A stretch of 64,000 nucleotides of DNA from Coriobacteriaceae bacterium EMTCatB1. GTDB taxonomy: Bacteria; Actinomycetota; Coriobacteriia; Anaerosomatales; Anaerosomataceae. The position numbers and the translations under genes are program-made. Every line of letters begins with the position of its first letter. The first letter of the stretch is position 1. Below, piece after piece: positions 4,248-28,083 of the stretch. Where the stretch lies: NCBI GenBank assembly GCA_001950395.1, contig BDLO01000001.1, positions 1,029,979 to 1,093,978 on the forward strand, given 5' to 3'. Under the pieces are notes generated by a model, which saw only the letters and a program-made list of their open reading frames with translations, ran no database searches and was not told the origin of the DNA.

Positions 4248-4907
4248 TCAGTCGTTCGGTCGGCCAGCGCCGATCGGCACCTGGCACTTGCACGCGAGCG
4301 ACTTGATGTCGCACGGCACGCGCACCTGGTGGATCTGCATCCCTTCCGGCTTCCGCACGTGGATGACCGGCGTGATGAGCAGCACGCCCGTGATCCCGGC
4401 GTTGGCGAGCAGGTCCAAGGTGACCTGGACCCACCCCGGCGAGCATGCCACCAATGCGACGGTGACGCCCAGGTTCGTATCCAGCTTCGCAAGATCTGTG
4501 AGGTGCTGCACGGTCAAGTCGCCTATCTTCGTGCCGGCATCTTCGGGGAGCTCCGAGAACAGAGCGACGGGCTTCACACCGTAGCGCTCGGACGGGAAAA
4601 CGACCTGCAGCGCTTCGAGCATCTTCGCGGTTCCGACGAGCGCAATCGGGTACTCCTCGGACAGACCCAGGTACCGCGTGAACTCACGATAAAGGTCCCC
4701 GGGCTTGTAGCCGGCTCCCGGACGTCCTATCTCGCCCACGAACGAGATGTCCCGACGAACCGTCTCCTCCTTGATACCGAGTTCGCGGGCGAGCTCTGAC
4801 GACGTGATGCGCTCCGGCGCGCCCACTCGCAGAAGCTCGCCCAGGTAGCAGTGATAGAGCGAGAGGCGGTACAGGGTGGCATCGGGTGCATTGCGGCCGT
4901 CCGGCAT
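4248..4907 (-). CDS. Rex-family regulator with degenerate NAD(H) pocket
   Basis: A 219-residue protein with the two-domain Rex layout. It has an N-terminal winged helix (ITSSELARELGIKEETVRRDISFVGEIG, residues 34-61) and a Rossmann-like C-terminal domain. Two hallmarks of NAD(H) binding are absent: where Rex has GxGxxG this protein has GTAKML (92-97), and the acidic residue at the end of the second strand is replaced (VALFSEL, 115-120). The C-terminus instead carries Cys199, Cys206 and Cys208 (VPCD and ACKCQ). The start is ATG 4907 with AGGAGG about 10 bases upstream. A canonical Rex lies at 15615-16262 for comparison. It probably binds DNA, but NADH/NAD sensing is doubtful. Confidence 0.75.
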   Translation of the reverse strand: MPDGRNAPDATLYRLSLYHCYLGELLRVGAPERITSSELARELGIKEETVRRDISFVGEIGRPGAGYKPGDLYREFTRYLGLSEEYPIALVGTAKMLEALQVVFPSERYGVKPVALFSELPEDAGTKIGDLTVQHLTDLAKLDTNLGVTVALVACSPGWVQVTLDLLANAGITGVLLITPVIHVRKPEGMQIHQVRVPCDIKSLACKCQVPIGAGRPND

Positions 4908-7285: not shown

Positions 7286-7861
7286 TCAGGGCAGTGGCGT
7301 CGGGGTCGCGTCGCCGGACTGCGACAGCACCTTGGTGTGCGCGACGAGCCACCCGCCGCTCCTCCGAGAGAGCAGGTACTCGACCTCGTAGGTGGTGTCG
7401 GCCCAGTCGGTGGACGGCTGGCGGGTGCTGAGACTCCAGTAGCGCCAGCGCCACGCCTCGCTCGTGCGCACCGTAGCCGAGGTCGTCTCTGCTGACGGCG
7501 AGTCCGCCGAGAGCACCGAGAACGCCGTCAGGTCCATCTCCAGGGCTTGGCCTTGCTGCCGGTTGAGCTCGATGTACGCGTCCTCGCGGACCTCTTGCTC
7601 TTCGGTGACGTACGGCGCCACGATGCTCGTCTCGAGGCTGTAGTACGCCTCGGCAGCAGCCGAGAGATACGCAGTGACCGCCTGCTTCGGGGTGCTCGAC
7701 GGCAGGCGCTCGACCGGCGCATCGCCGATCGGCAGTACACCGGAAGTCGGCTCTCGTGCGGGCACGTTCTTGGCGCGCGCGCATCCAGCCGCGACCGCGA
7801 GCGCAGCGCAGCACACGACGCACACGACCAGTCGTATCACACGAGATCTCACGAGCGCCAT
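7286..7861 (-). CDS. secreted lipoprotein, function unknown
   Basis: A 191-residue protein with a hydrophobic signal and the lipobox LAVAAGC ending at Cys27, so it should be lipid-anchored on the outer face of the membrane. The mature part starts with a Pro/Ser linker and then a compact alpha+beta domain ending in VEYLLSRRSGGWLVAHTKVL. That pattern resembles NTF2-like or ARC6-IMS-like folds, but I do not recognise the family. It is first in an apparent operon with resB-ccsA. A role as a chaperone or receptor for exported apocytochrome or heme is inference from position only. Confidence 0.75.
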   Translation of the reverse strand: MALVRSRVIRLVVCVVCCAALAVAAGCARAKNVPAREPTSGVLPIGDAPVERLPSSTPKQAVTAYLSAAAEAYYSLETSIVAPYVTEEQEVREDAYIELNRQQGQALEMDLTAFSVLSADSPSAETTSATVRTSEAWRWRYWSLSTRQPSTDWADTTYEVEYLLSRRSGGWLVAHTKVLSQSGDATPTPLP

Positions 7862-7940: not shown

Positions 7941-10900
7941 CTACTGGAACACCCTCAGCTCGGCGATGCCGTAGCCATTGTTGCGACCGGTGCCCGTTTT
8001 GCGGCACTCCACCTTGACGTACCGGGCATCGCGCGCCGAGAACGTGACCGTCGTCGTCCCTTTGACGGCGCTGGTGGTCGAGTACACCTGCGTCCAGTTG
8101 CGGTTGTCGGTGGACACGTACACGCGGAACTCCTTGGCCCAGTAGTCACCGTACCAGGCGACCTCCACGCGGCTGACTCTGTACCGGGAGGCGAGACCCA
8201 CCTTCAGCCACTGGGTGTCTGATGCCCCGCCGTCGCGCTTCGACCACCAGTACGTGGACTCGCTGCCGTCTCCTGCCTTTGCGGGAGCGTAGCTCGAGCT
8301 CTCGTACCGCGAGGCGGTGAAGGTCTTCCCGAGCGCGAGGTTGCTGCCGCCGCCCGTCGAGGTCGGGGTCAATGCGGCGTTCACTGTGACCGTCGAGCCG
8401 TTCACGACGGTGACCGATGAGGACCACGACTGGTACCCGGTCGCCGTGACCGTCATCGTGTACGTCCCGCCGGCGATGCCTGTGATGCTGTACTTCCCAT
8501 CAGAACCGGTCGTGGCCGACTTACCAGCGACGCTCACCATCGCGCCAGCAACTGGAGCGCCAGTCGAGGAGTCGGTGACCGTGCCGGCGACGTCGCCTGT
8601 CGTCGGGGCCGTCGGGTCGAGCACCAGCGGCCACACCGGCGTGACGGAGCTCTTGTGCTCGCCGCACGAAGTGGAGCAGTCGCCTTCGCTCCACTGCGTG
8701 GGCGTGTAGCTCTTCAGCACGAGCCCCGTAAGGCCAGTGCTCGCGTAGGGCGACCCGTCGGTGGTGTACGCCAGCAGACGCGGACGCTTCCACCCGTGCG
8801 GCACCTGAGCGTGGCACAGGATGCACTTACCCCTGTTGGATCCCTGGTGATCGCCCTTCTCGTGCACCTTGTTGCTCCAGGTGTTGCTCGTGCCGTTGAG
8901 GTCGTGGCACTTGGCGCAGATCACCGTCGTGGAGCTCATGCCGTTGGACGAGTTGGTGAGGTACGCGCTCTTCCAGCTCGTCGGGTACGCCGGGTCGATG
9001 TTCACCTTCATCGCGGCCCCGTGAGGACCGGACGCGCCGGTGTAGGTGTGGCAGGAGTCGCAGGACATGACGGAGTCGGTGGACCAGCCGCTCTTCAGGA
9101 ACGAGGAGGCGGCGGGAAGCGTCCAGGTGTACGTCTTGCCGTTCACGGAGAACGACGACTGCATGCCTGGCAGGTCGCTCGAGACGCGGTGGCCAGACGA
9201 CATCTTCGGCGTGAACTCCCACGCCTGACGCGCGTTGTGCGGTGAGTCCGGATGGCAGGTCAGGCAGCGCCGGTCGCCTGCAGCGATCGCCGCCTGCACC
9301 GTGGCGTTCGTCGAGCCGTGGCAGGTCTGGCAGGTGTATCCGAGCGCCGCGTGCTCATCGTCCAGGTACATGAAGTGGCAGCCCTTGCAGCCGCTCGGGT
9401 TCGCGCCCGAGGCGTCGTGCGCCTCGTGGTGGTTCGGCCCGACGCCAGCGTGGCAGACAGTGCAGTCGGTGGTCGTCGCTGGCTGATCGGGACCCTTGTG
9501 GCACGCCGAGCAGCCGCCTTGCGGCAGCCCGGCGTGGATGGCGTCCACCTTCGTGATGTCGTGGCAGCCAGTGCCAGCGCACGCCGTGTTCGTCGACTGG
9601 TGCTTCGTCTGCCGCTCAGCGTGCTTCACGGGGTGGCACGCGCCGCACGTCTTGTCCCACGGAGCCGTGAAGGCGTCGACCTTGAGCTCGTGGCACTGCA
9701 CGCACGTCACGCCGACCGTGGGCTTGAAGTGCTCGGCCTTCATGTCTTTGTAGTGGCACTGGCCGCAGCCGGACTCGGCAGAGGCGTCGTGGGCAGCGGC
9801 CGGATAGTGGTTCGGATCCACCGGGCTCAAAGCGCCGTGGCAGTTGGCGCACTTCGTGGACGCAGGAAGCGTCACCTGCGCGTTGTGGCAGTAGTCGCAC
9901 GACGCTTCCTGGCTTGCGCCGTGGATGTCGCGCACGTCCGCGGTCTCGTGGCAGTCCACGCACTCCTGGCTGTCCGGAGCGGTGTGGATGGCGGCGATGT
10001 CGCCGTGCACCGTATGGCAGCTCGAGCAGTCCGCGCTCGCCTGGCTCCAATCGATGCGAGCGGGGTCGGCGTTCTGGTGGCACAGAGCGCACGTCGTCGC
10101 GTACTGCGGATAGCGAGACAGGTACGGCTCATGCGCTTCGGGCAGGGTGTTCGCGGCATGGCAGCGTGAGCCGACGCAGCTCGACGGCATCGCGCTGAAG
10201 GTGTGCGCCTCTGGCAAGCCGCGATGGTAGTCCGTGCCCTCCGCCGCATGGCAGCTCGCGCATGCAGCCGTCTTCGCCGTGATGTCCGGAACCCTCGTCG
10301 GGTTGGCGTGGCACACTGTGCATCCGCCGAGCGCGGCGTTCTTATGCACCACGGTCACGTCGAGCGGCTGGCCCGCAGCACCGTGGCACGAGGAGCAGCC
10401 GTCCACGCTCGCTTCGTCATCGGCCGTGTGCTTGACAGCGGCGCCCGCGTGGTAGCTCGCGTGGCACGCCGTGCACCGCGTGTCGTTCGCCACCTCGATC
10501 GCGAACTGCACCTCTTGGCCGCGTTCGCCCTCGTAGTTGCTGTGGCACACGTCGCAGCCGTTCAGCTGCTCCCCGCTTGGGGTCGTCGCCGTCACGCCTT
10601 CGTGAGCATCGACGAGCGATGCCGCGTGGCAACCGCTGCAACCCTGGTCGCCTGACGGCGTGAAGGCGCTGCGGTGAGCAGTCGATGTGGGGGCATGCAC
10701 GGGATGGCAGGCCTCGCAGTTCGTCTTGCCAGTGGCGATCGCGTCCAGGACTTCGAGCTTCGAGGACTTGTGGCACGAGTCGCAGGAGAGCGGTGTGCCG
10801 TCAGATGCGTACCTCGGAAGACGGGTGACGACGCCGTTCGACGTGCCCATGTGCTCGTCGATCAGGTTCGACGTGTGGCACATGATGCAGTCGCTCGTAG

Positions 10901-11900
10901 GCGCGGTCGACGCGGAGCCGGTGTAGTAGCCGTAGTGCGGACCGGTGGCGTCGACGAGCGGCGGCTCGGCCCAGTGGATAGCGCGGTGCGCATCGCCAGC
11001 CGTAGCGTCGTGGCACGCCCCGCACGCCGTGTCGCCTGCCGAGATGGCGGCTGCGTAGCGCGGGTCAGAGGTGTTGCCGTGGCACAGCGTGCAGCCCTCG
11101 CCGGGGCGCCGCGCTTCGTGCTCAGCGACGAGGTCGCGCGAGTCGTGGCAGCCGGACGCCAGGCAGCCGTCCATCGACCAGGTGCTCAGGTGCGTGTCGG
11201 CCGCGTAGTGCTGGTCGAGCGGCTTGTGGCAGTTCGTGCACGCCGGCAGATCGGCGCCCGCAGAAAGCGCGGCCTTCGGATGGCACGCAGCTGCGTAGCA
11301 CGAGACGGGTCGCGTCCCGTAGTTGAACGTGCTCTCGATCGTAACCGCTCCGGCGGCGCCCGTGCAGACTTGGCTTGGCACCGGCGCGTACGACGCGACC
11401 GCAGATTGCGCGATCACGTGATCGCCATGAGAGGAGGGAGCGTCGTGGCACGCGTCGCACGCTGCGGCGAGGTGGCAGTTCTTGCACCACTGGCTGGAGA
11501 AGTCGCCACCAGTCACCCAGTCGGCGTCGCCGTGGATGCGATGCAGCTCCTCGGGTGAGGTCATGAGAGAGGCCGATGATGCGAACCGACCAGCCACAGG
11601 GTCGTAATACTGTCCGAGCCACGCGGTGTTGGCATCCGTGCGACCGTGGCACTGGCTGCAAAGCGGCATGTACACCGACTTCTCGTGAATCCCCGAATCA
11701 GGACTCATCAAATGGCACGCTTTGCACTTCTCGAGAGAGACCGGGGCGCCGAAGTCGACCGTCTTCGACGAGCTGCCTGCGGTCACCGAATGACATCCGA
11801 GACACACCTGGTTCTCAGCCGGGGCTGCGGCGGAGGCAGCGCCCATGAAGACGAACAGCACGAGAACCGCAGCCGTCGCGAGCAGGATCGCTCTTCTCAT
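7941..11900 (-). CDS. secreted 37-heme c-type cytochrome with carboxypeptidase-regulatory-like and discoidin-type domains
   Basis: A 1319-residue secreted protein. A signal peptide covers about residues 1-24 (MRRAILLATAAVLVLF...). Counting by hand gives 33 CXXCH motifs and four spaced CX4CH motifs (CYAAACH, CLASGCH, CVGSRCH, CAGTGCH), 37 potential hemes in total, filling residues 33 to about 1065. A beta-sandwich linker of carboxypeptidase-regulatory type follows at about 1102-1186 (GTVTDSSTGAPVAGA). An F5/8 type C (discoidin) domain, usually carbohydrate-binding, ends the protein at about 1187-1319. The start at 11900 is chosen because the signal peptide begins there. Likely role: long-range extracellular electron conduction attached to cell-surface glycan. 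Confidence 0.9.
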   Translation of the reverse strand: MRRAILLATAAVLVLFVFMGAASAAAPAENQVCLGCHSVTAGSSSKTVDFGAPVSLEKCKACHLMSPDSGIHEKSVYMPLCSQCHGRTDANTAWLGQYYDPVAGRFASSASLMTSPEELHRIHGDADWVTGGDFSSQWCKNCHLAAACDACHDAPSSHGDHVIAQSAVASYAPVPSQVCTGAAGAVTIESTFNYGTRPVSCYAAACHPKAALSAGADLPACTNCHKPLDQHYAADTHLSTWSMDGCLASGCHDSRDLVAEHEARRPGEGCTLCHGNTSDPRYAAAISAGDTACGACHDATAGDAHRAIHWAEPPLVDATGPHYGYYTGSASTAPTSDCIMCHTSNLIDEHMGTSNGVVTRLPRYASDGTPLSCDSCHKSSKLEVLDAIATGKTNCEACHPVHAPTSTAHRSAFTPSGDQGCSGCHAASLVDAHEGVTATTPSGEQLNGCDVCHSNYEGERGQEVQFAIEVANDTRCTACHASYHAGAAVKHTADDEASVDGCSSCHGAAGQPLDVTVVHKNAALGGCTVCHANPTRVPDITAKTAACASCHAAEGTDYHRGLPEAHTFSAMPSSCVGSRCHAANTLPEAHEPYLSRYPQYATTCALCHQNADPARIDWSQASADCSSCHTVHGDIAAIHTAPDSQECVDCHETADVRDIHGASQEASCDYCHNAQVTLPASTKCANCHGALSPVDPNHYPAAAHDASAESGCGQCHYKDMKAEHFKPTVGVTCVQCHELKVDAFTAPWDKTCGACHPVKHAERQTKHQSTNTACAGTGCHDITKVDAIHAGLPQGGCSACHKGPDQPATTTDCTVCHAGVGPNHHEAHDASGANPSGCKGCHFMYLDDEHAALGYTCQTCHGSTNATVQAAIAAGDRRCLTCHPDSPHNARQAWEFTPKMSSGHRVSSDLPGMQSSFSVNGKTYTWTLPAASSFLKSGWSTDSVMSCDSCHTYTGASGPHGAAMKVNIDPAYPTSWKSAYLTNSSNGMSSTTVICAKCHDLNGTSNTWSNKVHEKGDHQGSNRGKCILCHAQVPHGWKRPRLLAYTTDGSPYASTGLTGLVLKSYTPTQWSEGDCSTSCGEHKSSVTPVWPLVLDPTAPTTGDVAGTVTDSSTGAPVAGAMVSVAGKSATTGSDGKYSITGIAGGTYTMTVTATGYQSWSSSVTVVNGSTVTVNAALTPTSTGGGSNLALGKTFTASRYESSSYAPAKAGDGSESTYWWSKRDGGASDTQWLKVGLASRYRVSRVEVAWYGDYWAKEFRVYVSTDNRNWTQVYSTTSAVKGTTTVTFSARDARYVKVECRKTGTGRNNGYGIAELRVFQ

Positions 11901-12202
11901 GACTCCCCTCTTCCCACGTGACGAGCAAGGTCCGATGTCGCCAGCGGGGACAAGGGGCGTTTCGTGATTCGGCGGTCTCGTGCCCCGGCACTGTCCTGCT
12001 GACGCGCTCTCGGCCGGTTGCGCCACTGGCTCGTCGCCGCCCAAGGCGCCCACGTCACGGGCAGCGAGTCATCGCCTCCGAACCGCAGACCGGCAGTGCG
12101 CCCCTCACGTCCGGACTCGCGGTGTGTGAATTGTGAGCGAAGTCACCGGATTAGTCAATAGTGACTTTGGTCACATAGCGGCTGTGAAGGCGATGGTGGG
12201 CG
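11901..12202. other. 302-base intergenic region upstream of the 37-heme gene
   Basis: No gene is visible here. The right third holds two GTGA-N6-TCAC inverted repeats, annotated separately. A weak -10-like CACAAT on the minus strand lies at 12130-12135. That would place a transcription start near 12123 and leave a leader of more than 200 bases before the ATG at 11900. The left two thirds are GC-rich with no evident structure. Confidence 0.5.
12133..12174. promoter_or_regulatory. two tandem CRP/FNR-type operators (GTGA-N6-TCAC)
   Basis: GTGAGCGAAGTCAC lies at 12133-12146 and GTGACTTTGGTCAC at 12161-12174. Both match the GTGA-N6-TCAC half-site arrangement recognised by CRP-like regulators. Their centres are 28 bases apart. 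Relative to a possible start near 12123, the upstream site would sit close to -44 (activating) and the other would overlap the -10 region (repressing). Which regulator binds is unknown. Confidence 0.5.
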
Positions 12203-13669
12203 TCAGAAGTCGATGCCGACGCGCTTGCCAGGCACGACCTGGTGACAGATCAGACAGTTCCCGTCCCTCGGAAAGTCGTAGTACCTGAGCATGTAGTTCT
12301 GCTGCGTCCCGTGGGGGTTGTGGCAGGTCGACGTGCACGTGAGCGGCTTTCGCGCGTTCACGTCGTAGTGCTTAGGTCTCACGGGATGGTTGTTGCGATA
12401 CTCCGTAGCCGAGGACTCGTCGAAAGCGGATGCGGGGTGGCACTGCAAGCACACCTCGGGCTGGGGCTTGATGAGCAGCGGCGCCCAGTTCGAGCCGTGC
12501 GGGGTGTGGCACCGCACACAGAGCGTGTCGAAGTGCGCGCTCCGGTCATAGGTCGCCTGTATCGCCGCCCGGTGGCACTGGTAGCACATCGCGTTGTTCT
12601 TGGCTGCCAAGAGCGCCGGATAGTCGGCGGCATGCGGGTTGTGGCAGTCCGCGCAATTCAGCTTCACTGTGCCGACCGGATGATGGCTCGGCTTCAAGAA
12701 GTCGTACTTGATGCCTGGATGGCACCTGTAACAGAGACCTGGCTGGTACTCGATGAGAAGCGGAGTGTAGTCAGACCCGTGCGGCTCGTGGCAGCCGGTG
12801 CAGTTGTCGTATAGGAACGGGTGGTGCTGCACCGGCTTGAGCGACAGCGGCGCCACCGTCGGGTGGCAGGTGAAACAGAGGTCACGCTGATTGTCCACGA
12901 GGATCCCGCGGTAGTTCGACGCGTGCGGGTCGTGGCAGTTCAGGCACCAGCGGCCCCCGGCGGGCGGATGGACCTGCGCCCTGTTCAGCTCACGGCCGAT
13001 CGGATGACAGGTCACGCACAAGTCGCGCTCGTCTTGGGTGAGCAGCGCGCGGAACTTCGACGCATGCGGCTCGTGGCATTCCGTGCAACGACCCTCTTGG
13101 AACGGGACATGGGGATAGTCGCCCGACAGCAACGGCCCCATATCGCCGTGGCACATCCAGCAAAGCTCGCTTTTGGGAAGCGTCGGCTCGGAGTCCTTGC
13201 CTTTGACCTTCTTCTCGGTCTTGGAGACGACCTCCCCGCCCTTCTCCTCGGCGACCTTGCCGTCGCCGGTCGAGAAGACGTCGAGCACCACCTTAAGCGG
13301 CAGCCACTCGACGAGCGTCTTGACGCGCTGCCAGACCTGCTTCGCCCCCGCGATGACAGAGGTGACTTCGACGTGGCCGTGGGGCGTGTGGCACGTCGTG
13401 CAGTCCTTTCGCATGAAAGGATCGTGCACGGTCGGATACGAGAACTGCGGGATCAGCTCCGAGTGGCACTGCAGGCACTCGAGGTTGCGCGTGATGCGTT
13501 TGATCTGCTCGGGAGTCTTCGTCGTGTAGGTTTGGACGACGGTGGTGATGCCGCACGCGAGCAGCAGCACGAGAAGGGCGGCCCCGAGGGCGAGCCGGCC
13601 GCGCCGCTCATTGGCTCGATCGTGCTGACCGTCGGACTTCGGCCCCGCTTTGACCTCGGCGTCGCTCAC
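12203..13669 (-). CDS. membrane-anchored 15-heme c-type cytochrome (doubled-CXXCH repeats)
   Basis: A 488-residue protein. It has a short charged cytoplasmic N-terminus, one membrane segment (about residues 25-47) and an exported domain. I count 14 CXXCH motifs plus one CX3CH (CTSTCH near residue 455). They alternate in the doubled-CXXCH pattern, with CxxCHxPHxS followed by LCxxCH about 30 residues later. A Lys/Glu-rich spacer near 120-165 separates the first two hemes from the rest. The GTG start at 13669 is preceded by GAGGAGGGG. Likely passes electrons from the quinone pool or a membrane donor towards the extracellular 37-heme protein encoded next. An NrfH/NapC-like quinol oxidase role is possible but not shown. 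Confidence 0.9.
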   Translation of the reverse strand: MSDAEVKAGPKSDGQHDRANERRGRLALGAALLVLLLACGITTVVQTYTTKTPEQIKRITRNLECLQCHSELIPQFSYPTVHDPFMRKDCTTCHTPHGHVEVTSVIAGAKQVWQRVKTLVEWLPLKVVLDVFSTGDGKVAEEKGGEVVSKTEKKVKGKDSEPTLPKSELCWMCHGDMGPLLSGDYPHVPFQEGRCTECHEPHASKFRALLTQDERDLCVTCHPIGRELNRAQVHPPAGGRWCLNCHDPHASNYRGILVDNQRDLCFTCHPTVAPLSLKPVQHHPFLYDNCTGCHEPHGSDYTPLLIEYQPGLCYRCHPGIKYDFLKPSHHPVGTVKLNCADCHNPHAADYPALLAAKNNAMCYQCHRAAIQATYDRSAHFDTLCVRCHTPHGSNWAPLLIKPQPEVCLQCHPASAFDESSATEYRNNHPVRPKHYDVNARKPLTCTSTCHNPHGTQQNYMLRYYDFPRDGNCLICHQVVPGKRVGIDF

Positions 13670-13716
13670 CCACCCCTCCTCAGGCGCACACGCGATCGGT
13701 GAATAGAACCGCTCAT

Positions 13717-13730
13717 GTGAAGTCTATCAC
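13717..13730. promoter_or_regulatory. CRP/FNR-type operator upstream of the 15-heme gene
   Basis: GTGAAGTCTATCAC is a GTGA-N6-TCAC inverted repeat centred 54 bases before the GTG of the 15-heme cytochrome. A TTCTAT on the minus strand (13703-13708) could be its -10 element. The same motif occurs twice before the 37-heme gene, which suggests common control. Confidence 0.45.
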
Positions 13731-13768
13731 GCACAGAACCTGTGGGGCAGCCTCGTCCACAAGATTCG

Positions 13769-14869
13769 CTAACGTCCCGTCAGTCGAACGCACTGCACGC
13801 GTCCATTCTCCTTATCGGCGATGACGAGGAAACCCCTGAGGCGCTCGACGTCGTTCGGGAAGTTGAGCTGGCCCGGCTCGGTCCCCCTCTCTCCGTAGCG
13901 CGCGGTGATCGTGTGCTCCTCAGACGAGATCCGCACGAGCTGGAACGCGAACGAGTCGGCCACGAGGACGTCGCCGTCGTCCAGAACCGTCAGCCCACGG
14001 GGAAGCTGAAGCGGGCGCGGCGAGCGGTCGTTCAGTCCCTTCGGCGGCGTGCCGACGCTCCACAGCGGCGTGCCGTCTTGGCTGAATGCGGTCACCCTCG
14101 CGTGGTTTGAGTCCGACACGTACACAGTGCCGTCCGCGCCGACTGTCAGGCCATTGGGATGGTCGAGGTCACCGATCTCGAGCCCCGGCTTTCCCCACTG
14201 GCGGACGAACGTGCCGTCCCGCTTGAAGACGAACACCTGCCACTGGTCCGTGGCAAACACGTAGTCGCCGCTCACGGCGACGTCCGTGACGGCGATGCCT
14301 CCTCCGTCTTGACCGGACGACCCGCGACCGACGGGCTTCGTCGGGTCCGGGAAGCGTCGCAGCGGCTTGCCGTCTGGGTCGTAGACCTCGATCGAGTCGT
14401 TGTAGAAGCTCGCGACGTAGACGTTGCCGTCCTGGTCGACGTCGATGCCGACCGGGTAGTTCAGCCGCCCAGGCTTGTACGAGTACGTGCCGCCTGGGAC
14501 CGGTTTCGCGACACCGAACCCGCCGAACTCGAACAGGAACCTGCCGTTCGAGTCGAAGACGCAGACGCGGTTGTTGCCCGAGTCGGTCACGTACACTCGA
14601 CCGCCCTTGCCCACGGCGACGCCCATCGGGCGATCGAAAAGCGGCTTGTCCCCGACTCCTGGCCCGTACACCTGCCAGACCGGTTTGATGCCTTCCTTGG
14701 GCGGCACGGACCCGAGCGACTCAGGTCGGCCCAAGAAGTAGAAGAGGTACACCAGCAGAGCTACCAAGAGCAGCAGCAACACCACCGCCAGCACGGCGAA
14801 CCACTGCCGCGGGGTGAGCCGGATGCCCTTCTTGAGCGGGGCGAACGGATCGAGACGACGCTTCGTCAC
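13769..14869 (-). CDS. membrane-anchored NHL-repeat beta-propeller protein
   Basis: A 366-residue protein. A short basic N-terminus is followed by one strong membrane segment (about residues 19-41). The rest consists of successive NHL-type blades, with repeated motifs such as GVAVGKGGRVYVTDSGNNRV and GIDVDQDGNVYVAS, probably forming a six-bladed propeller outside the membrane. The GTG start overlaps the TGA of the TPR gene (GTGA). NHL and TPR proteins recur beside multiheme cytochrome genes in metal-reducing bacteria; an assembly or scaffold role is inferred from that. No catalytic residues are evident. Confidence 0.82.
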   Translation of the reverse strand: MTKRRLDPFAPLKKGIRLTPRQWFAVLAVVLLLLLVALLVYLFYFLGRPESLGSVPPKEGIKPVWQVYGPGVGDKPLFDRPMGVAVGKGGRVYVTDSGNNRVCVFDSNGRFLFEFGGFGVAKPVPGGTYSYKPGRLNYPVGIDVDQDGNVYVASFYNDSIEVYDPDGKPLRRFPDPTKPVGRGSSGQDGGGIAVTDVAVSGDYVFATDQWQVFVFKRDGTFVRQWGKPGLEIGDLDHPNGLTVGADGTVYVSDSNHARVTAFSQDGTPLWSVGTPPKGLNDRSPRPLQLPRGLTVLDDGDVLVADSFAFQLVRISSEEHTITARYGERGTEPGQLNFPNDVERLRGFLVIADKENGRVQCVRLTGR

Positions 14870-15618
14870 TGGCTGGCCCCCAGTCTCTTGAGCCCGTCTT
14901 TCGCTTCTGCCATGTCTGGCGCGTACTTCAGCGCCGCGCGGTAGTACGCGATCGCTTCGTCGCGCTTGCCCAATTGCTCGCTCGCGTAGCCGGCGATGTA
15001 CTGCAAGTCGGCGTACTGGGGCTGGCTCTTCAGCACCGGCTCGACCGTGAACAGCGCCGACTTGTAGTGCTTCTGGCTGAGGTACAGCTCGCCGAGCGTC
15101 TTGGCGGCCAGCACGTGGTCCGGGGCGACTTTCAGCACCTCCCACAGCGCGGCCTCCGCGTCCTTTGACTTGCCTTGCGCGAGCAGCACCATCCCGCGGT
15201 TGTACATCGCCGCGAGGTTCTGTGGATCGCGCTTGAGGACTTCTTCGTACTGCGCGAGCGCGTCGTCCCAACGTTGCTGCTGCTGATACGAGTACGCGAG
15301 GTTGAGCCGCGCCTCGAGGTCCTCCGGGTCGCGCTCAAGCGCTGCCTTCCAAGCGTCCTCCGCGACGGTAGCCGGCGTGGCCTGCTTCCCGCGCGTGAGC
15401 ACGCCGCGAAGCACGAAGCCGCCAGCCGCCGTGACTGCGAGCAGCAACAGCAATACGAGCAGCGCAAGCCAGCCAGGAACGAGATCCTCCTCGCGCGGCT
15501 CGCGCTCGGAGCCTTCACGCTCGCTCGCTTCGACGCCCGCCGCCTCCTCACCGACCGCGAGCGAAGCGTCTTGCTTGAGCACGGGCTCAGCGTCCTCCGA
15601 GAGCTTCTTGGGCGTCAT
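14866..15618 (-). CDS. membrane-anchored TPR protein
   Basis: A 250-residue protein. The first 45 residues are acidic and rich in Glu/Ser. One membrane segment follows (about 50-72), then four to five tetratricopeptide repeats (for example AWKAALERDPEDLEARLNLA and AIAYYRAALKYAPDMAEAKD). TPRs mediate protein-protein contacts, so this is a likely partner or assembly factor for the NHL protein and the cytochromes. The ATG at 15618 overlaps the rex stop (ATGA) and the stop overlaps the next gene (GTGA), so all three are translationally chained. Confidence 0.83.
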   Translation of the reverse strand: MTPKKLSEDAEPVLKQDASLAVGEEAAGVEASEREGSEREPREEDLVPGWLALLVLLLLLAVTAAGGFVLRGVLTRGKQATPATVAEDAWKAALERDPEDLEARLNLAYSYQQQQRWDDALAQYEEVLKRDPQNLAAMYNRGMVLLAQGKSKDAEAALWEVLKVAPDHVLAAKTLGELYLSQKHYKSALFTVEPVLKSQPQYADLQYIAGYASEQLGKRDEAIAYYRAALKYAPDMAEAKDGLKRLGASQ

Positions 15619-16262
15619 CGAGCCCCCTCCTGCTGCGCAAGCCGGAACGAGAGGATCTGCAAGTCGGTCGAAAGACACACCTGTCGGACGTTCACGTCGT
15701 CCGGCACGACGAGCCGTGTCGGCGCCAGGTTGAGGATCGCCTTGACGCCGCCTTCGACCACCGCGTCTGCCGCGAGCTGCGCGGCGTGCGGTGGCGTCGC
15801 TAGGATCGCGATCTCGACGCCAAGCTCGCGCAGGACCTTCGGCGCTTCGTCGAGGTGGTGGACCGCCAGGCCGTCGAAGACCTGGCCGACCTTGGCAGGG
15901 TCCACGTCGAACAGCGCGACGACCTCGAACCCGCGCTCCGGAAAGCCAGGGTATCCGTGCAGCGCGGCGCCCAGCTTGCCATACCCGACGATCGCCGCCT
16001 TTCGCCGTTCCTTGACGCCGAGGATCTGCGAGATGTGCTCTACGAGAGCCGCGACCTCGTATCCGATGCCGCGGGTCCCGAGCTCTCCCAGGTACGAGAA
16101 GTCCTTGCGGACCTGCGCAGCGTTCGTGCCGCACAGCGCCGCGAGCCGTTCGGACTTCACGAGCGGGACACCGAGCGCCTGCAGCTCGATGAGGCACCTC
16201 AGATACTGAGGCAGCCGCTCAATCGTGCTCTCCGGGATCCCGGAGCCGTTCTTCTCGCTCAT
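15615..16262 (-). CDS. rex: redox-sensing transcriptional repressor Rex
   Basis: A 215-residue canonical Rex. The N-terminal winged helix includes the DNA-contact segment VRKDFSYLGELGTRGIGY (residues 51-68). The Rossmann domain has the intact GYGKLG (93-98) and Asp119 at the end of the next strand. The C-terminal swap helix is present. Rex represses respiration and fermentation genes at high NAD/NADH ratio and releases DNA when NADH rises. Unusually it is embedded in an operon, overlapping an O-antigen-ligase gene upstream and a TPR gene downstream by ATGA on both sides. It may control the operon it belongs to. Confidence 0.95.
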   Translation of the reverse strand: MSEKNGSGIPESTIERLPQYLRCLIELQALGVPLVKSERLAALCGTNAAQVRKDFSYLGELGTRGIGYEVAALVEHISQILGVKERRKAAIVGYGKLGAALHGYPGFPERGFEVVALFDVDPAKVGQVFDGLAVHHLDEAPKVLRELGVEIAILATPPHAAQLAADAVVEGGVKAILNLAPTRLVVPDDVNVRQVCLSTDLQILSFRLAQQEGAR

Positions 16263-18400
16263 CGTGTCGTCTCCTTCGCCGCCAGGCTCGCTTCGACCGA
16301 CTGGAGCGCCTGCTGGGCGTCCGCCCTGCCGCCAGACAGCTGCACCGCCCTCTCGAACGCCGCTTTCGCGCCCTGCAAGTCACCGAGCAGTCGCCGAGCG
16401 TCGCCGAGCGCCATCCACGCCTCGACGTAGTTCGGGTCCTGATCTGCTGCCTCGGCCGCCTGAGCGGCAGCATCAGCGAACTGTCCGCGCGTCATCAGCG
16501 CGAGCGCAAGCTGCACGCGGATGGCAGGCCCGAACGGCTCGACCTCGACGCCCCTGCGGGCGATCTCGACCGCTTTGTCTGCATACGCGGGATCGAGGTA
16601 GTACGATGCCTGATTGTACAAATTCGCGAGGAACACGTAGTTGTCGTACTCGGTGGGCACGAAGTCGATGACCGACAAGAACTCGCGCTCAGCCTGAGAC
16701 AGATAGTACTCCGCACGCTGTCGAGATTGCGCGTCGCCGACGCCCTGCATGACCTGCGAGATGAACAGATCCTGCCACGCGAGCCCGACCTCCGTGCGGT
16801 ACATGTCGTTGTACGGGTTCAGCTTCACCGCCTTCTCGGCGTACTCCACGCGAGTCATGCCCTGCGAGCCGATGCGAGCCTTCAGGTACATGTTGTCGGC
16901 GCGTACGTACACGACGTTGCCCACGAACAGAGCGGCGCACAGGCCGCAGACGGCCGCGGTCGCCGGCATACCGAGCGAAGGCGCCTCGACCTCACGCACG
17001 GCGGCGTGCGGCGACAGGAGCAATCCCAGGCTCAACCACAACAGCACCGTCGAGCCCGTGATCGAGAGCCCGAAGGTGAGGTGCACGATGTACCCGAGCG
17101 CCGCTGCCCAGAACCCCGCGAGCACGATCCGCTCGGTGCCGCTTCCCTTCACGAACACCGTGCGGAACGACCGCGCGAGCGTCCACGCGAAGAAGCCGTA
17201 GAGCATGAGCAGCCCTGGGACGCCTATCGCAGACGCGAGCTGGAGCGGGTAGTTGTGCACGTTGTCCGCCACCGACAGGTAGCCGGCAGTGCCCGTGTAG
17301 GCCCGCGGCTTGAAGCGCGGGAACAGCAGCCGGAACGTGTCGGCGCCCCAGCCCAGGATCGGCCGCTCCTTGATGGCGGCCAGCGCGGCCTGCCAGATCT
17401 GGAACCGCGTGAGCGCGCTGCCCTGCCCGAACTCGAAGATGGACTTGATGCGCGCGACGACGTTCGTCACGCCGTCCGTCGACGACAAGCTGCGGACCGT
17501 CTCGACGACCGCGAGCACCGCGCTCACGCCCACCGCTCCCCAATCCACGCTCGTCCATGGGGTGCGGGCGACGAGCGCCGCGGCAGCGATGGCGACGATC
17601 GCGACCGTCCCTCCGATCCACGCGCCGCGCACGTACGACACCAGCAAGCAGAACCCGATGACGGCGAACGCCGCCCACCAGCCGGCCCTCGCCTCGCGCC
17701 GCTTCTCCGAAAGCGCGAGCGAGAGGGCGACCGCGAGCGGGAAGATGAGGTAGCCTCCGAGCAAGTCGGGGTTCCCGAAGGTCGAGAACGCGCGACGCTG
17801 CTCGAACGGAAGCGAGCCCCAGGGAGCCGGGTCGATGCCGAAACGCTGCGCCACGCCGTAGCCCGCGACCAGCACGCCGCCGACGACGAGCGAACGCGCG
17901 AGCGAGCGGATGCGCGACGGCCGGTCAGCGAGCTGCAACGCCAGGAAGAACCAGCCGCCGTAGGTGAGGAAGGACAGCAGCCCTTCGAACCTGCGGTACT
18001 TGCCGAAGATGGCGGTCGGCGGGTGGATCGAGGTGACCGAGGTGAGGAGAACCCAGCCGAGGAACGCGAGCACCAGCCACTCGACTCTCGTGAACCGCAC
18101 CTTGCCGCCGCGCAGCAGCAATCCGGAAAGCCACGCTGCGGCAGCCACGAGCAGCAGCGCGCGCATGGTGAAAACCTTGACGATGTCGAACTGGTCGTAG
18201 GTGAGCGGCATCGCCCTGATGCCGACGACGCTCGGGTTGGACACTGCAAGCGGCACGAGGATCACCATGAGGTGCATGCACACCCAGGCGATGCGGTCGA
18301 AGACGTCCATCGGCGCCGCCTGCGGCTGCGGAGCGCGGGGCCTCGAGCGCTGAGCAGCAGCCGTGGACGGCTTGACGGTCGATGCTTTCTTCTTCGCCAT
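16259..18400 (-). CDS. O-antigen ligase/polymerase family membrane protein with C-terminal TPR domain
   Basis: A 713-residue protein. A Lys/Ala/Pro-rich cytoplasmic N-terminus (1-30) precedes about 12 membrane segments (about 35-470). The Wzy_C-type periplasmic loop includes RFQIWQAALAAIKERPILGWGADTF and the LSVADNVHNYPLQLASAIG segment with its conserved His. The last 200 residues are TPR repeats. Such proteins polymerise or transfer lipid-linked glycan outside the membrane; some are protein O-glycan ligases. The ATGA overlap with rex ties glycan transfer to the TPR-NHL-cytochrome cassette. Protein glycosylation and polysaccharide polymerisation cannot be told apart from sequence alone. Confidence 0.85.
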   Translation of the reverse strand: MAKKKASTVKPSTAAAQRSRPRAPQPQAAPMDVFDRIAWVCMHLMVILVPLAVSNPSVVGIRAMPLTYDQFDIVKVFTMRALLLVAAAAWLSGLLLRGGKVRFTRVEWLVLAFLGWVLLTSVTSIHPPTAIFGKYRRFEGLLSFLTYGGWFFLALQLADRPSRIRSLARSLVVGGVLVAGYGVAQRFGIDPAPWGSLPFEQRRAFSTFGNPDLLGGYLIFPLAVALSLALSEKRREARAGWWAAFAVIGFCLLVSYVRGAWIGGTVAIVAIAAAALVARTPWTSVDWGAVGVSAVLAVVETVRSLSSTDGVTNVVARIKSIFEFGQGSALTRFQIWQAALAAIKERPILGWGADTFRLLFPRFKPRAYTGTAGYLSVADNVHNYPLQLASAIGVPGLLMLYGFFAWTLARSFRTVFVKGSGTERIVLAGFWAAALGYIVHLTFGLSITGSTVLLWLSLGLLLSPHAAVREVEAPSLGMPATAAVCGLCAALFVGNVVYVRADNMYLKARIGSQGMTRVEYAEKAVKLNPYNDMYRTEVGLAWQDLFISQVMQGVGDAQSRQRAEYYLSQAEREFLSVIDFVPTEYDNYVFLANLYNQASYYLDPAYADKAVEIARRGVEVEPFGPAIRVQLALALMTRGQFADAAAQAAEAADQDPNYVEAWMALGDARRLLGDLQGAKAAFERAVQLSGGRADAQQALQSVEASLAAKETTR

Positions 18401-18409: not shown

Positions 18410-19774
18410 TTAACGGGCCCCACGACCGGTGAGCACGACCCGAAGCGTCTCGACGAGGATCTGCAGGTCCATGAGCAGACTCTGATGATACATGTAGATG
18501 AGGTCGAACTTCAGCTTCCGTTCCGCAGTCGTCGCATAGCCGCCGCTCACCTGAGCGAGTCCCGTGACGCCCGGCTTGACGCGGAACCGCTCGCGATAGC
18601 CGGGGATCTCTCGCAGGTGCTGCTCGACGAAGAACGGCCGCTCGGGACGCGGGCCGATGAAGCTCATGTCGCCTTTGAGGATGTTGAGGAGCTGCGGAAG
18701 CTCGTCGATGCGATAGCGGCGCAGGAAGCGGCCGAACGGCGTGATGCGCGGGTCGTCCTCTTCCGCGAGGACCGGGCCCGTCTTTCGCTCGGCATCGCGC
18801 ACCATCGTGCGGAACTTGACGATGCGGAACACGCGCAGGTCCTTCCCGACGCGCTCCTGCGTGTAGAAGACGGGTCGGCCCATCGTGACGAGGATGCCGA
18901 GCGCCGCGAACAGCAGCACGGGCGAGAGGATCGTGAGCAAGACGAGCGCGCCCACGACGTCGATCGTTCGCTTCGAGACCTCGAACCAGCCCGGCACCGG
19001 CCGGCCAGTGAGCTGCATGAGCGGGATGTCGCTCACCGCGCTGTCGACCGTGCCGATGAAGATCTCGTACAGGTCGGGTACGACCTCGACCCGGACGTCG
19101 ATCTCGTCAGATAGCGCCAGCTGCTCGATGAGTTCGCGCACCGCCGGGGGCGACGAGACGATGATGCGGTCGGCCTCAAGCTCTCCGGCCAAGCGAGCGG
19201 CATCGCGAACCGAGCCCAGCACGGAAAAGCCCGCGACCTGGGCATCCTGGACGGGCTCCCGTGCGATCAGCCCGAGCACGCGAGGCCCCCATCCCGAACG
19301 GCGCTGAAGCTCGCGCGCGAGCTCGATCGCCGCGTCGTCCGTGCCGAGAATGAGGATGCGGCTTTCGGGCCACCGTATCGGGGTCAGGCGCAGCGCAGCG
19401 AGACGCCACGCCACCAAAGCCGTGAACTGCAGCACCGGGGCGATGAGGATGACGAGGCGGTTGAAGGAGAAGAACCTCGGGCCGAGGAAGAACGCGGTCG
19501 CCGCGGTGAGCAGTATGCCGAGCACAGTGGCGCGCGCCACCGCGCTGGCCACCGCCCACGCGCTCTCGGTCCGCTCCGGCTCGTACAGCCCGTACACGTA
19601 GCCCGCGAGCAGGTAGAAGGCGGTGATGAGCGGCCAGAGCAGCACGTACGGCGTGTAGTTGAACGCAGGCGGCTGGCCGCCGTACCGGATGAAGAACGCG
19701 GCGACGAAGCATGCGTTGACGAACAGCGCATCCAGCAGCACCGAGAGCGCGACGAAGGACTTCCTCGACATCAC
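18410..19774 (-). CDS. polyprenyl-phosphate sugar-1-phosphate transferase (WcaJ/WbaP-type)
   Basis: A 454-residue protein. Four N-terminal membrane segments come first, then a CoA-binding-like Rossmann region (RILILGTDDAAIELARELQ). The C-terminal bacterial sugar transferase domain starts near 265 with KRTIDVVGALVLL. Its catalytic signatures are KFRTM, RYRIDELPQLLNILKGDMSFIGPRPE and PGVTGLAQVSG. It starts glycan assembly by moving a sugar-1-phosphate onto undecaprenyl phosphate at the inner face of the membrane. Start: the GTG at 19774 overlaps the stop of the upstream GT4 gene (GTGA), and an ATG follows immediately. Which sugar is transferred is not evident; galU- and manC-type genes nearby would supply glucose or mannose. 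Confidence 0.93.
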   Translation of the reverse strand: MMSRKSFVALSVLLDALFVNACFVAAFFIRYGGQPPAFNYTPYVLLWPLITAFYLLAGYVYGLYEPERTESAWAVASAVARATVLGILLTAATAFFLGPRFFSFNRLVILIAPVLQFTALVAWRLAALRLTPIRWPESRILILGTDDAAIELARELQRRSGWGPRVLGLIAREPVQDAQVAGFSVLGSVRDAARLAGELEADRIIVSSPPAVRELIEQLALSDEIDVRVEVVPDLYEIFIGTVDSAVSDIPLMQLTGRPVPGWFEVSKRTIDVVGALVLLTILSPVLLFAALGILVTMGRPVFYTQERVGKDLRVFRIVKFRTMVRDAERKTGPVLAEEDDPRITPFGRFLRRYRIDELPQLLNILKGDMSFIGPRPERPFFVEQHLREIPGYRERFRVKPGVTGLAQVSGGYATTAERKLKFDLIYMYHQSLLMDLQILVETLRVVLTGRGAR

Positions 19775-20889
19775 ACGGCCTCCATGGCCTCACGGTACAC
19801 GGCGAGCGTGCGCTCCACCATCCCGTCGCGTGTGAACTCGGCGCGCACCCGCTCGCGCGCCTGCGCGCCGAGGCGCGCCCGCAGGTCCCCGTCTTCGACG
19901 AGCGTGCGAAGCGCGTCCGCAAGCGCGTCGACGTCGCCGGGCGGGACCACGAGCCCGCTCGTGCCGTGCTGGTTCACAAACGGAACGCCAGTCGGCAGGG
20001 CGGTCGAGACGACCGGCGTTCCCGCCGCCATCGCCTCGATCTGCACGAGCCCGAACGCCTCCGAACGCGCCACGCTCGGCAGGCAGAACACGTCGGCGGC
20101 GCGATAGTGCGCGGCGAGCTCACGGCGCGAAAGCGGCGGCAGGACGGTCAGGCGCGCTTCGACGCCGAGCTCGCGGGCCAACGCACGCAGCTCGCCCTCG
20201 AGCGGGCCAGAGCCGACGACGACGAGGTCGGCATCGACGCGCGCCATCGCCCGCACGAGCACGTCCACGCCCTTGTAGTAGATGAGCCGTCCGACGAAGA
20301 GCACGATCGGGCGCTCGTGCTGCGCACGGATCTGCTGCGCAAGCGGCTCGAGCGCGGGGTCGGCGAACTCGTCCGGATCGATGCCGAACGGCACCACCCT
20401 GCACTTGTCTGCGACCGGCGAGAGGAACGCGCTGTGCTCGATCATCTGCGGGTTCGACACGATGATGCGCCCCACGCGCGCCAGCACGCGCCTGAGGAAC
20501 GGGGCGTAGCCGGCGAGCAGCACGCGCTGCCGGACGATGTCGCTGTGGTAGGTGAGCACCGAGGGCAGCTTCGGCGCCGCGCGCAGCCACTCGAGCTCGC
20601 CCCACGGGTAGGGCGAGTGGAGGTGCAGCACGTCCGCGCGGCGCTCCTCCTCGCGAAGCGCGCGCGCCATCCCGAACGCCACCGGAGCGGACGACACGTT
20701 GAACGCGCGCCCGAGGCGCACCACCTCCACCCCGCCACGCGTCTCGGTCACCGTGTCGGGGGCCTCGTTCGCGACGATCGCGCGCACCGCGTGACCGCGC
20801 TCGACGAGCGCTTCTGCCAGGTCGCGCACGTGGTGCTCGATGCCTCCGAGGTGCGGCGGGTAGTGCTTGTTCAGCATCGTGATGCGCAT
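19771..20889 (-). CDS. GT4-family glycosyltransferase
   Basis: A 372-residue cytoplasmic glycosyltransferase of the GT-B fold. The N-terminal acceptor domain starts with the Gly-rich loop NKHYPPHLGGIEHHV. The C-terminal donor domain has FVGRLIYYKGVDVLVRAM and the family E-x7-E motif (SEAFGLVQIEAMAAGTPVV). It adds a sugar from a nucleotide donor to a lipid-linked acceptor. It begins 20 bases after the phosphohexomutase gene and overlaps the sugar-phosphate transferase by 4 bases, so it likely adds an early sugar of the same glycan. Donor and linkage cannot be read from sequence. Confidence 0.9.
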   Translation of the reverse strand: MRITMLNKHYPPHLGGIEHHVRDLAEALVERGHAVRAIVANEAPDTVTETRGGVEVVRLGRAFNVSSAPVAFGMARALREEERRADVLHLHSPYPWGELEWLRAAPKLPSVLTYHSDIVRQRVLLAGYAPFLRRVLARVGRIIVSNPQMIEHSAFLSPVADKCRVVPFGIDPDEFADPALEPLAQQIRAQHERPIVLFVGRLIYYKGVDVLVRAMARVDADLVVVGSGPLEGELRALARELGVEARLTVLPPLSRRELAAHYRAADVFCLPSVARSEAFGLVQIEAMAAGTPVVSTALPTGVPFVNQHGTSGLVVPPGDVDALADALRTLVEDGDLRARLGAQARERVRAEFTRDGMVERTLAVYREAMEAV

Positions 20890-20909: not shown

Positions 20910-22310
20910 TCAGTCGTCTTCGCCGAGCACGAGGCGCTCGCCTGCTGCGAGAAGCTCGTCCACCACGCCGGCGTTCGGCGCCTCAGCGTAGATGCGCACG
21001 AGCGGCTCGGTGCCCGACGTGCGGAGCAAGAGCCACGCGTCGTCCGGCAGCAGGAACTTCACGCCGTCATCGCGCACGACGGCCTTCACAGGCAGCCCCG
21101 CGATGGCGTCCGGCGCAAGCGACGGCATGCGCGCGACGAACGCGTCTTTCGCCTCCTGCGCAAGCGCCAGATCGCGCCTGAGGTACTCCATCGGGCCGGT
21201 GACGGCGAGCAGGTCCTCCACGAGCTCGCCAAGGCCCATGCGGCGCTTCCCCATCATCTCGGCGAGCAGGAGCGCCATCAGCAGCCCGTCGCGTTCGCGC
21301 ACGTGCTCGGGGATGCCGATGCCGCCGCTCTCCTCGCCGCCGATGAGGACGCCTCCTGCCACCATCTGCTCGTAGATCCACTTGAAGCCGACGGGGGTCG
21401 TGGCGACCTCCAGGCCGAGGTGCTGCGCGATCCGGTCGACGAGCACGGAGGTCGAGAGCGTCTTGACGACGCGGCCGCGCATGCCGCGGCCCTCGACGAG
21501 GTGCCGCGTGACGAGCGCGAGGATGCGGTGCGGGTTGACGAATGCGCCCGTGCGGTCGCAGGCGCCGATGCGGTCGGCGTCGCCGTCGGTGGCGAAGCCC
21601 GCGTCGAACCCGCCGTCGGCCACCGCCCGGCGCATCGCGTCGATGTGCGGCGGGATGGGCTCGGGGTGCAGGCCGCCGAAACCAGGGTTGCGCTCGCCGT
21701 GGATCTCCGTCACCTCGACGCCGAGCGCCGTCAGCGTCTCGGCGAGATAGCCCTGGCCCGCGCCGTACAGCGGGTCGACCACCACGCGCAGCCCTGCCGC
21801 GCGGACAGCGTCTGCGTCGACGAACGAGCGCAGCGCCTCCACGTACGGCCCGACGAGGTCGACCGTCTCGAACTTCCCGCGTGCGTCGGGAGCCTCGTCG
21901 CGAAGCGCGGCCTCGACCCGGTCGGTGAACGAGACGGGGCTCGCGCCGCCGTCTTCCATGCGGAGCTTGAAGCCGAGGTACTTCGCGGGGTTGTGGCTCG
22001 CGGTGAGCATGACGCCGCCCGCGGCCTCGGAGTGAGCGACCGACCAGCACAGCGCTGGCGTCGGCAGCGGACGGTCGGAGACGCGGACCTTCAGGCCGTG
22101 GGCCGCGAGCACCTCCGCGGCGGCCTGCGCGAACGCCCCGGCCTCGAACCGCGTGTCGTAGCCGACGATGATCACGCCCCCGGGGCGGTCTTCGGCGAAC
22201 ACGCGACCTGCCGCGTCGGCGACGCGGCGCAGGTTCTCGTACGTGAAGCCGTCAGCGATGACGGCCCGCCACCCGTCCGTCCCGAATCTGATGTCGCGCG
22301 CAGAGGGCAT
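20910..22310 (-). CDS. phosphoglucomutase/phosphomannomutase family enzyme
   Basis: A 466-residue alpha-D-phosphohexomutase. The active-site phosphoserine loop TASHNP has Ser105. The metal loop is DGDADR, the sugar-binding loop is GGEESGG, and the phosphate-binding loop RTSGTEPLVRIYAE is near the C-terminus. It interconverts hexose 6- and 1-phosphates and so feeds GDP-mannose (manC, divergent neighbour) or UDP-glucose (galU). ATG 22310 has AGGAGG 6 bases upstream. An open frame extends further upstream only through antisense of manC. Glucose versus mannose specificity cannot be decided here; the divergent manC gene favours mannose. Confidence 0.93.
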   Translation of the reverse strand: MPSARDIRFGTDGWRAVIADGFTYENLRRVADAAGRVFAEDRPGGVIIVGYDTRFEAGAFAQAAAEVLAAHGLKVRVSDRPLPTPALCWSVAHSEAAGGVMLTASHNPAKYLGFKLRMEDGGASPVSFTDRVEAALRDEAPDARGKFETVDLVGPYVEALRSFVDADAVRAAGLRVVVDPLYGAGQGYLAETLTALGVEVTEIHGERNPGFGGLHPEPIPPHIDAMRRAVADGGFDAGFATDGDADRIGACDRTGAFVNPHRILALVTRHLVEGRGMRGRVVKTLSTSVLVDRIAQHLGLEVATTPVGFKWIYEQMVAGGVLIGGEESGGIGIPEHVRERDGLLMALLLAEMMGKRRMGLGELVEDLLAVTGPMEYLRRDLALAQEAKDAFVARMPSLAPDAIAGLPVKAVVRDDGVKFLLPDDAWLLLRTSGTEPLVRIYAEAPNAGVVDELLAAGERLVLGEDD

Positions 22311-28074: not shown

Positions 28075-28083
28075 GGGATTCCC

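Follow-up and report, generated by a model that had tools for sequence, protein, structure and literature searches.

A conserved glycan and multiheme cytochrome locus of Anaerosomatales with a predicted c-di-GMP-gated giant cytochrome

Results

Gene content and organization

We analyzed a stretch of 64,000 nucleotides from the complete genome (1,838,614 bases) of Coriobacteriaceae bacterium EMTCatB1 (contig BDLO01000001.1, positions 1,029,979 to 1,093,978), hereafter the window. Its minus strand carries a run of glycan-assembly genes, a rex gene and genes for TPR and NHL repeat proteins, followed by genes for a 15-heme and a 37-heme cytochrome (Table 1). The synteny of relatives supports a single conserved locus of glycan-assembly and multiheme genes across the order Anaerosomatales, and the genes of the biggest cytochromes look switched by cyclic di-GMP (c-di-GMP), judging from the elements in front of them, rather than by the neighboring Rex.

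An earlier note on this DNA had described the ligase, rex, TPR and NHL genes as overlapping by ATGA, ATGA and GTGA, and had read this as strict coupling. All three overlaps are exact in the sequence, the ligase stop and rex start sharing four bases at 16262-16259, rex and TPR at 15618-15615, and TPR and NHL at 14869-14866. Its heme counts were also right: CYT15 (13669-12203) has 14 CxxCH motifs and one CxxxCH, and CYT37 (11900-7941) has 33 CxxCH and four CX4CH. Such overlaps are nothing special here, however: 7 of the 24 close co-directional gene pairs in the window share one of 4 bases. The overlaps are close packing, ordinary for this window, and the real evidence for the locus is, on comparison of genomes, the conserved order. 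Among relatives, the TPR-NHL overlap is retained most often and the REX-TPR overlap often, while the ligase-REX overlap is seldom seen outside the genus.

The run, which may be carried on a single transcript, begins three genes earlier than first described, with PMM, GT1 and SUGT upstream of LIG (gaps of 9, -4 and 20 bases for LIG-SUGT, SUGT-GT1 and GT1-PMM, respectively). The cytochrome genes are not tightly chained to it: the 15-heme gene lies 99 bases after NHL, and the 37-heme gene follows after a further 302 bases, a gap that contains a promoter-like site and a c-di-GMP-II riboswitch.

Table 1. Features of the locus, with window coordinates, strand and supporting evidence.
Feature	Coordinates	Strand	Evidence
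Mannose-1-phosphate guanylyltransferase (GMP), divergent from PMM	22425-23882	+	Pfam NTP_transferase + MannoseP_isomer
PMM, phosphomannomutase/phosphoglucomutase-like, first gene of run	20910..22310	-	synteny 31/36 evaluable loci
GT1 glycosyltransferase, 4-base overlap with SUGT	19771..20889	-	gap -4; synteny 34/39
SUGT, WcaJ/exopolysaccharide (EPS)-type polyprenyl glycosylphosphotransferase	18410..19774	-	PF02397 3.3e-66; synteny 36/40
LIG, WaaL-like O-antigen ligase/Wzy_C membrane protein, C-terminal TPR domain	16259..18400	-	PF04932 4.5e-17
REX1, Rex redox-sensing repressor	15615..16262	-	NF003992 271.3 bits
TPR, membrane-anchored, MamA/PilW-like TPR	14866..15618	-	PF13432 2.9e-26
NHL, membrane-anchored beta-propeller, GTG start	13769..14869	-	PF01436 3.4e-29
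TGTGA-N6-TCACA-type box upstream of 15-heme gene, 9/10, genus-conserved	13716..13731	-	motif scan
CYT15, 15-heme membrane-anchored MtrA/DmsE-like cytochrome, doubled CXXCH	12203..13669	-	PF09699 1.6e-68
Box TGTGACCAAAGTCACT, abuts -35 hexamer upstream	12160..12175	-	TGTGA-N6-TCACA-type
Sigma-70-like promoter TTGACT-17-CACAAT	12130..12158	-	1 found, 0.0 expected; only promoter match
Second box GGTGACTTCGCTCACA, overlaps promoter spacer and -10	12147-12132	-	TGTGA-N6-TCACA-type
c-di-GMP-II riboswitch aptamer, RF01786	12003..12087	-	65.2 bits, E 2.6e-12, gathering score 53.5
CYT37, 37-heme secreted cytochrome	7941..11900	-	C-terminal CarboxypepD_reg + CBM32/F5_8 type C
Small secreted/lipoprotein-like protein, no Pfam match	7286..7861	-	look-alikes precede ResB in many relatives
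ResB, cytochrome c biogenesis	5894..7276	-	PF05140 1.4e-23
CcsA-type cytochrome c assembly protein	5077..5904	-	PF01578 6.3e-37
REX2, second Rex-like regulator	4248..4907	-	PF06971 7.6e-12

Synteny across relatives

To follow the order of these genes, we took 48 stretches around the NHL matches of relatives, many of them draft assemblies, and counted only evaluable loci. NHL orthologues or paralogues were present in 58 of 61 relatives, and the order PMM-GT1-SUGT-LIG-REX-TPR-NHL recurred across many genera of the Anaerosomatales (class Coriobacteriia). The partners were largely kept (PMM, GT1 and SUGT as in Table 1; LIG 41/43, REX 38/47, TPR 44/47), figures that are slightly low in that a few counted loci (e.g. 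L079 and L080) are second or distant NHL matches. The next called gene after NHL was a multiheme cytochrome in 39 of 47 loci, with genes called by a simple codon-composition script that sometimes misses them. Many families have a 7-heme and then a 15-heme protein after NHL, often followed by a 12-heme protein, ResB and CcsA. The earlier note had proposed such a search and had staked its case on its outcome; the order is indeed conserved across Anaerosomatales.

A neighborhood without shared function, in which a housekeeping capsule or EPS operon happens to abut a cytochrome island, would also produce synteny in small genomes (~2 Mb) with much conserved order. EPS operons are common, and in genomes G042 and G056 LIG-TPR-NHL stands apart from SUGT, GT1 and PMM. 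Nevertheless, the LIG-to-NHL block and its multiheme neighbors are stable across many genera while the genes after the block vary, TPR-NHL lies beside multihemes even in other classes, and the CBM32 module on giant cytochromes, described below, is an independent link to glycans. We therefore regard mere adjacency as quite unlikely.

Beyond the order, a draw of 246 genomes from the phylum gave no NHL match at 1e-20 in the 18 listed genomes of the same class, and two clear NHL relatives elsewhere together with more distant ones. In other actinobacterial classes, several NHL relatives directly follow a TPR gene and have multiheme neighbors; neither ligase nor Rex was seen within 1.5 kb around these TPR-NHL pairs. 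On this gene-neighborhood evidence, TPR-NHL-multiheme is thus a wider module, and its ligase-Rex extension is one seen in Anaerosomatales only.

Predicted functions of the encoded proteins

LIG carries a Wzy_C domain (PF04932, 62.7 bits against a gathering score of 31.7) together with a TPR domain. Its AlphaFold2 (AF2) model has a pLDDT of 76, and residues 31-467 match WaaL (7tpg_B) with Z 19.5 over 345 aligned residues at an rmsd of 4.4, which assigns the modeled protein to the WaaL membrane fold. R258, R332 and H382 are invariant in 15 orthologues and are candidates for the catalytic Arg and His residues of a WaaL-type enzyme. In a plain Foldseek search the matches listed were TPR proteins, because the TPR domain fills the list, and a second look put WaaL first; only TPR appeared among the listed matches of a sequence search against solved structures. 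SUGT scores 397.6 bits against TIGR03025 (cut-off 295.55).

The acceptor of LIG bears on its role, since lipopolysaccharide (LPS) is an unlikely one in a Gram-positive cell. WaaL-like folds also underlie PglL-type enzymes, and LIG could instead be a protein O-glycosyltransferase that attaches glycan directly to the cytochromes or to the NHL or TPR proteins. The TPR tail could select a protein acceptor, the product of the ABC transporter gene at 26209-28074 could be a flippase for lipid-linked oligosaccharide, and the expected lack of LPS points the same way. Still, the best structural match is WaaL, the sole ligase-type Pfam match is Wzy_C, no PglL-specific domain was seen in LIG, and a Wzy polymerase role fits equally well, leaving direct protein glycosylation unlikely in our estimate. 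The transporter gene belongs to a further, large glycan cluster upstream of the run (window 26209-36775), which also includes several glycosyltransferases, a UDP-GlcNAc 2-epimerase and a sugar nucleotidyltransferase.

TPR, NHL and CYT15 each have one N-terminal transmembrane segment (a helix at 51-69 in TPR), and their domains therefore probably face outward. The CxxxCH motif of CYT15 is invariant in 13 orthologues. Residues 256-415 match 6r2q_A (1.2e-16), which we take to be MtrA, although the structure table labels that chain differently. By score, CYT15 is not a member of the MtrA/DmsE decaheme family (TIGR03508, 178.8 bits, below the cut-off of 192.2), and its 15 motifs depart from the ten hemes that define that family.

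CYT37, whose ATG at 11900 follows the Shine-Dalgarno sequence GAGGGGAG, ends in a CBM32/F5_8-type, putatively glycan-binding module, assigned by PF00754 (2.7e-19, 70 bits against a gathering score of 28.2) and by the match of residues 1187-1318 to the chitosanase/glucanase CBM32 structures 2rv9 and 4zxe (5.2e-19). To compare the cytochromes that follow riboswitches in relatives, we fetched 20 downstream regions. An F5_8/CBM32 end domain was found in 7 of 14 riboswitch cytochromes, which amounts to 7 of the 9 long ones, that of the window included; the long ones mostly have 41 to 52 heme motifs. The frame with 52 motifs (L246, G006:C14:24900-30238) is cut by a contig end.

Elsewhere in the window, a further multiheme protein with 13 CxxCH motifs lies at 60671-63610 on the minus strand. 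The heme biosynthesis genes hemL, hemB, hemD, hemC and hemA, recognized by eye, and cytochrome c maturation genes occupy 37055-52064, which makes the 64-kb window a heme/cytochrome region.

Regulatory elements upstream of the cytochrome genes

The aptamer (12087-12003) is placed between the promoter match and the ATG of CYT37, and is the only RF01786 match above the gathering score in the genome. It is kept in all four members of the genus, and a CYT37 relative from another family also has it upstream. Among the 61 relatives, 31 genomes have RF01786 above threshold. Of the 30 best riboswitch loci, five have fewer than 400 bases downstream and the other 25 have more than 1.3 kb; in 24 of these 25, a frame containing 10 or more heme motifs follows. 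The genome encodes 12 GGDEF domains, making c-di-GMP the likely ligand of the predicted aptamer. Among the papers available to a literature search, none joined c-di-GMP-II with a cytochrome.

TGTGA-N6-TCACA sites occur 19 times in the genome, against three for the reversed control pattern, and three of the 19 are located between NHL and the 15-heme gene or between the two cytochrome genes. With a threshold fixed after the first examples had been seen, a 9/10-or-better box lies within 200 bp upstream in 18 of the 30 riboswitch loci, where shuffles lead one to expect 0.075. In the cluster loci, the distance between an intergenic box and the start of a multiheme gene is mostly 24-119 bp. TGTGA is followed by C/T in 78% of the boxes and by A in 7%, and is preceded by T in 32%. 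The rarity of that A and that T fits CRP-like rather than Rex-like sites. The genome encodes a CRP homologue with the helix SRETASR, along with a second CRP/FNR protein whose helix is ETLSR.

It is conceivable that these boxes are bound not by the CRP homologue but by a different dimeric protein, either REX1 or a regulator of the FNR type. TGTGA half-sites are common to CRP, some FNR-type and Rex operators, and the second CRP/FNR protein is a ready candidate. The box composition and the matching SRETASR helix favor the CRP homologue, as does the persistence of boxes in genomes without REX1, and we hold a different regulator to be rather doubtful.

A 9/10 TGTGA box immediately precedes a weak second c-di-GMP-II match (30 bits; G000:C1:1664415-1664555, L140 and L141), which in turn lies before a gene for a large secreted non-heme protein of ~1400 aa.

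Rex proteins and their operators

REX1 appears to be an intact Rex. It contains PF06971 and PF02629, scores 271.3 bits against NF003992 (cut-off 226), matches T-Rex 3ikt at 2.6e-46 and, in alignments with orthologues and T-Rex, keeps GxGxxG and the RKDxSYxGxxGxRGxGY recognition region. The earlier note had placed the locus under NADH/NAD control, which would have Rex repress it directly and that ratio switch a glycosylated electron conduit. The preserved DNA-recognition helix and nucleotide motif speak for such a role, as do the place of REX1 in the run at 38 of 47 loci, its overlaps with its neighbors and the half-site spacing that the cytochrome boxes share with the Rex operator.

The likely operator lies elsewhere. 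TTGTAACN4GTTACAA (up to 2 mismatches) was absent from the window and from all 48 cluster loci, and the canonical TTGTGAAN4TTCACAA gave nothing convincing there, only 2-mismatch matches in L061 and L077. In contrast, each of 27 genomes scanned has TTGTAAC-N4-GTTACAA sites, whereas the control pattern gave almost none. The genes downstream of such sites include nuo genes, one for a Tat-exported molybdopterin oxidoreductase, one for a short-chain dehydrogenase and, in G034, a rex gene. Given these targets, the sites likely form the Rex regulon and this sequence is the likely Rex operator of the order, with REX3 the likely owner of the sites. Moreover, REX1 is gone from the clusters of six genomes (G011, G018, G031, G042, G048 and G056) in which LIG, TPR and NHL stay, and the TGTGA boxes persist in genomes without it (G011, G042, G056 and G049).

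Rex was consequently rejected as regulator of the locus, the operator scans having yielded marginal matches only; we likewise rejected the TGTGA boxes as REX1 operators, since boxes remain where REX1 is missing and do not show the A or the flanking T that a Rex operator has. These scans lend no support to NADH control of the locus, and we consider direct Rex repression very improbable. REX2, which in many relatives closes the island on its downstream side, has the Rossmann loop VGTAKM in place of GxGxxG and is therefore probably not a usual NADH sensor.

About 13 kb past the window end, a perfect TTGTAACACCGGTTACAA (G000:C1:1106796; L142:11797) has a TPR-NHL pair on one side and a molybdopterin oxidoreductase/6-heme cluster on the other. 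Rex probably acts at this site, and the pair is a further module of the TPR-NHL kind.

Discussion

We put the odds a little above even (about 0.55) that Anaerosomatales use this island for extracellular electron transfer and build a surface glycan together with a cytochrome conduit gated by c-di-GMP and CRP. A surface conduit tied to polysaccharide is a good reading of the genomic evidence because the glycan-multiheme locus is conserved and the giant cytochromes often carry CBM32. To that extent the earlier proposal of an electron-conducting surface structure is supported; its NADH/NAD switch is not. More tentatively, and at somewhat less than even odds, the giant CBM32-tailed cytochromes with up to 52 heme motifs would belong to a dedicated c-di-GMP-gated system of polysaccharide and electron wire, in which they plug into the glycan produced by the ligase run and its genes stand with those of the TPR-NHL scaffolds, with CRP-type control and a class II riboswitch in series, convergent with the cGAMP (cyclic GMP-AMP) and xap systems of Geobacter.

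In the mechanism we propose, PMM and GMP would supply sugar nucleotides, SUGT would prime, GT1 and its neighbors would extend, and the WaaL-like ligase/polymerase would put the polysaccharide on the cell surface. TPR and NHL would together form a scaffold on which multihemes dock or are assembled where membrane and wall meet, and the MtrA-like 15-heme protein (in many relatives the 7-heme and 15-heme proteins) would convey electrons outward, with ResB and CcsA maturing the cytochromes. CYT37 would be the secreted terminal module, with its CBM32 anchoring it in the polysaccharide or the wall. Its production would follow when transcription is permitted by a CRP-type regulator and c-di-GMP acts on the riboswitch, probably via the Shine-Dalgarno sequence. 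REX1, although co-encoded, would more likely act elsewhere, on nuo-type respiratory genes.

Several observations weigh against this interpretation. The 37-heme gene at this position is a genus-level feature. Most relatives encode the riboswitch cytochrome at another site in the genome, so that its tie to the ligase run is thematic rather than one of strict linkage; an RF01786 scan of 8 further cluster loci found none within the cluster itself. Conservation is poor from the aptamer to the start codon (within the genus the Shine-Dalgarno is invariant and the middle variable), which makes the proposed switching mechanism a guess. No 9/10 box was found in 12 of the 30 riboswitch loci, and the shorter riboswitch cytochromes of several genera, with 13-16 hemes, are devoid of CBM32. 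The CBM32 ligand is read from the family only. The AF2 model of CYT15 (13 orthologues, without heme), which bears on a filament-forming fold as in polymerized cytochrome nanowires of the OmcS/OmcE/OmcZ type, reached a pLDDT of just 36 and was discarded.

Gram-positive iron reducers have to move electrons through a thick wall and keep their cytochromes on the outside, and for this task the locus offers concrete candidate parts: an MtrA-like membrane-anchored wire, two scaffold proteins, glycan-assembly genes and a giant cytochrome with a predicted glycan-binding module. A CRP-type box followed by a riboswitch provides a direct and testable link from surface sensing to extracellular respiration, and box plus RF01786 may serve as a compact marker for terminal cytochromes in uncultured subsurface Coriobacteriia. 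A cultured relative reduces Fe(III) and shows pili-like appendages on ferrihydrite only (PMC9686372), which fits surface-triggered control but proves nothing.

Parts of the locus have been described before, and the earlier note's statement that no such system was known holds only in part. CYT15 resembles the MtrA/DmsE decaheme family by its similarity to MtrA and TIGR03508, and differs in its 15 hemes, its N-terminal anchor and its Gram-positive host; no MtrB-type porin was noticed among the locus genes, though no search was aimed at one. In the Anaerosomatales bacterium Parvivirga hydrogeniphila, a Rex-type repressor and cytochrome c biogenesis genes accompany a cluster of multihemes (PMC9686372), which is probably this very island in a member of the genus studied here; the text available does not name the ligase/TPR/NHL run, riboswitch, boxes or CBM32. 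In Dethiobacter alkaliphilus, NHL- and TPR-repeat proteins likewise lie beside multihemes for extracellular electron transfer and are thought to aid complex assembly, whereas the accessible portion of that account describes no ligase, Rex, riboswitch or CRP box (PMC10376724). What remains particular to the Anaerosomatales, among the genomes surveyed, is the ligase-Rex extension.

Two Geobacter systems resemble the locus in function. In Geobacter sulfurreducens, the polysaccharide network of the xap genes anchors cytochromes (Rollefson 2011, as cited in PMC5585712), so that there, too, genes for a polysaccharide play a part in keeping cytochromes outside. The gene set is another one and the host Gram-negative, whereas here the glycan genes are contiguous with the TPR, NHL and cytochrome genes, and the cytochrome has its own predicted glycan-binding domain. 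The regulatory parallel is the cGAMP (GEMM-Ib) riboswitch of Geobacter, which precedes genes for cytochromes, pili and polysaccharides (PMC6456294). Both cases place a cyclic-dinucleotide riboswitch before extracellular multiheme genes, in Geobacter tied to growth on Fe(III) particles; here, in contrast, the aptamer is of the c-di-GMP-II class, the host is Gram-positive, the giant multihemes often carry CBM32, and a CRP-type box precedes the riboswitch.

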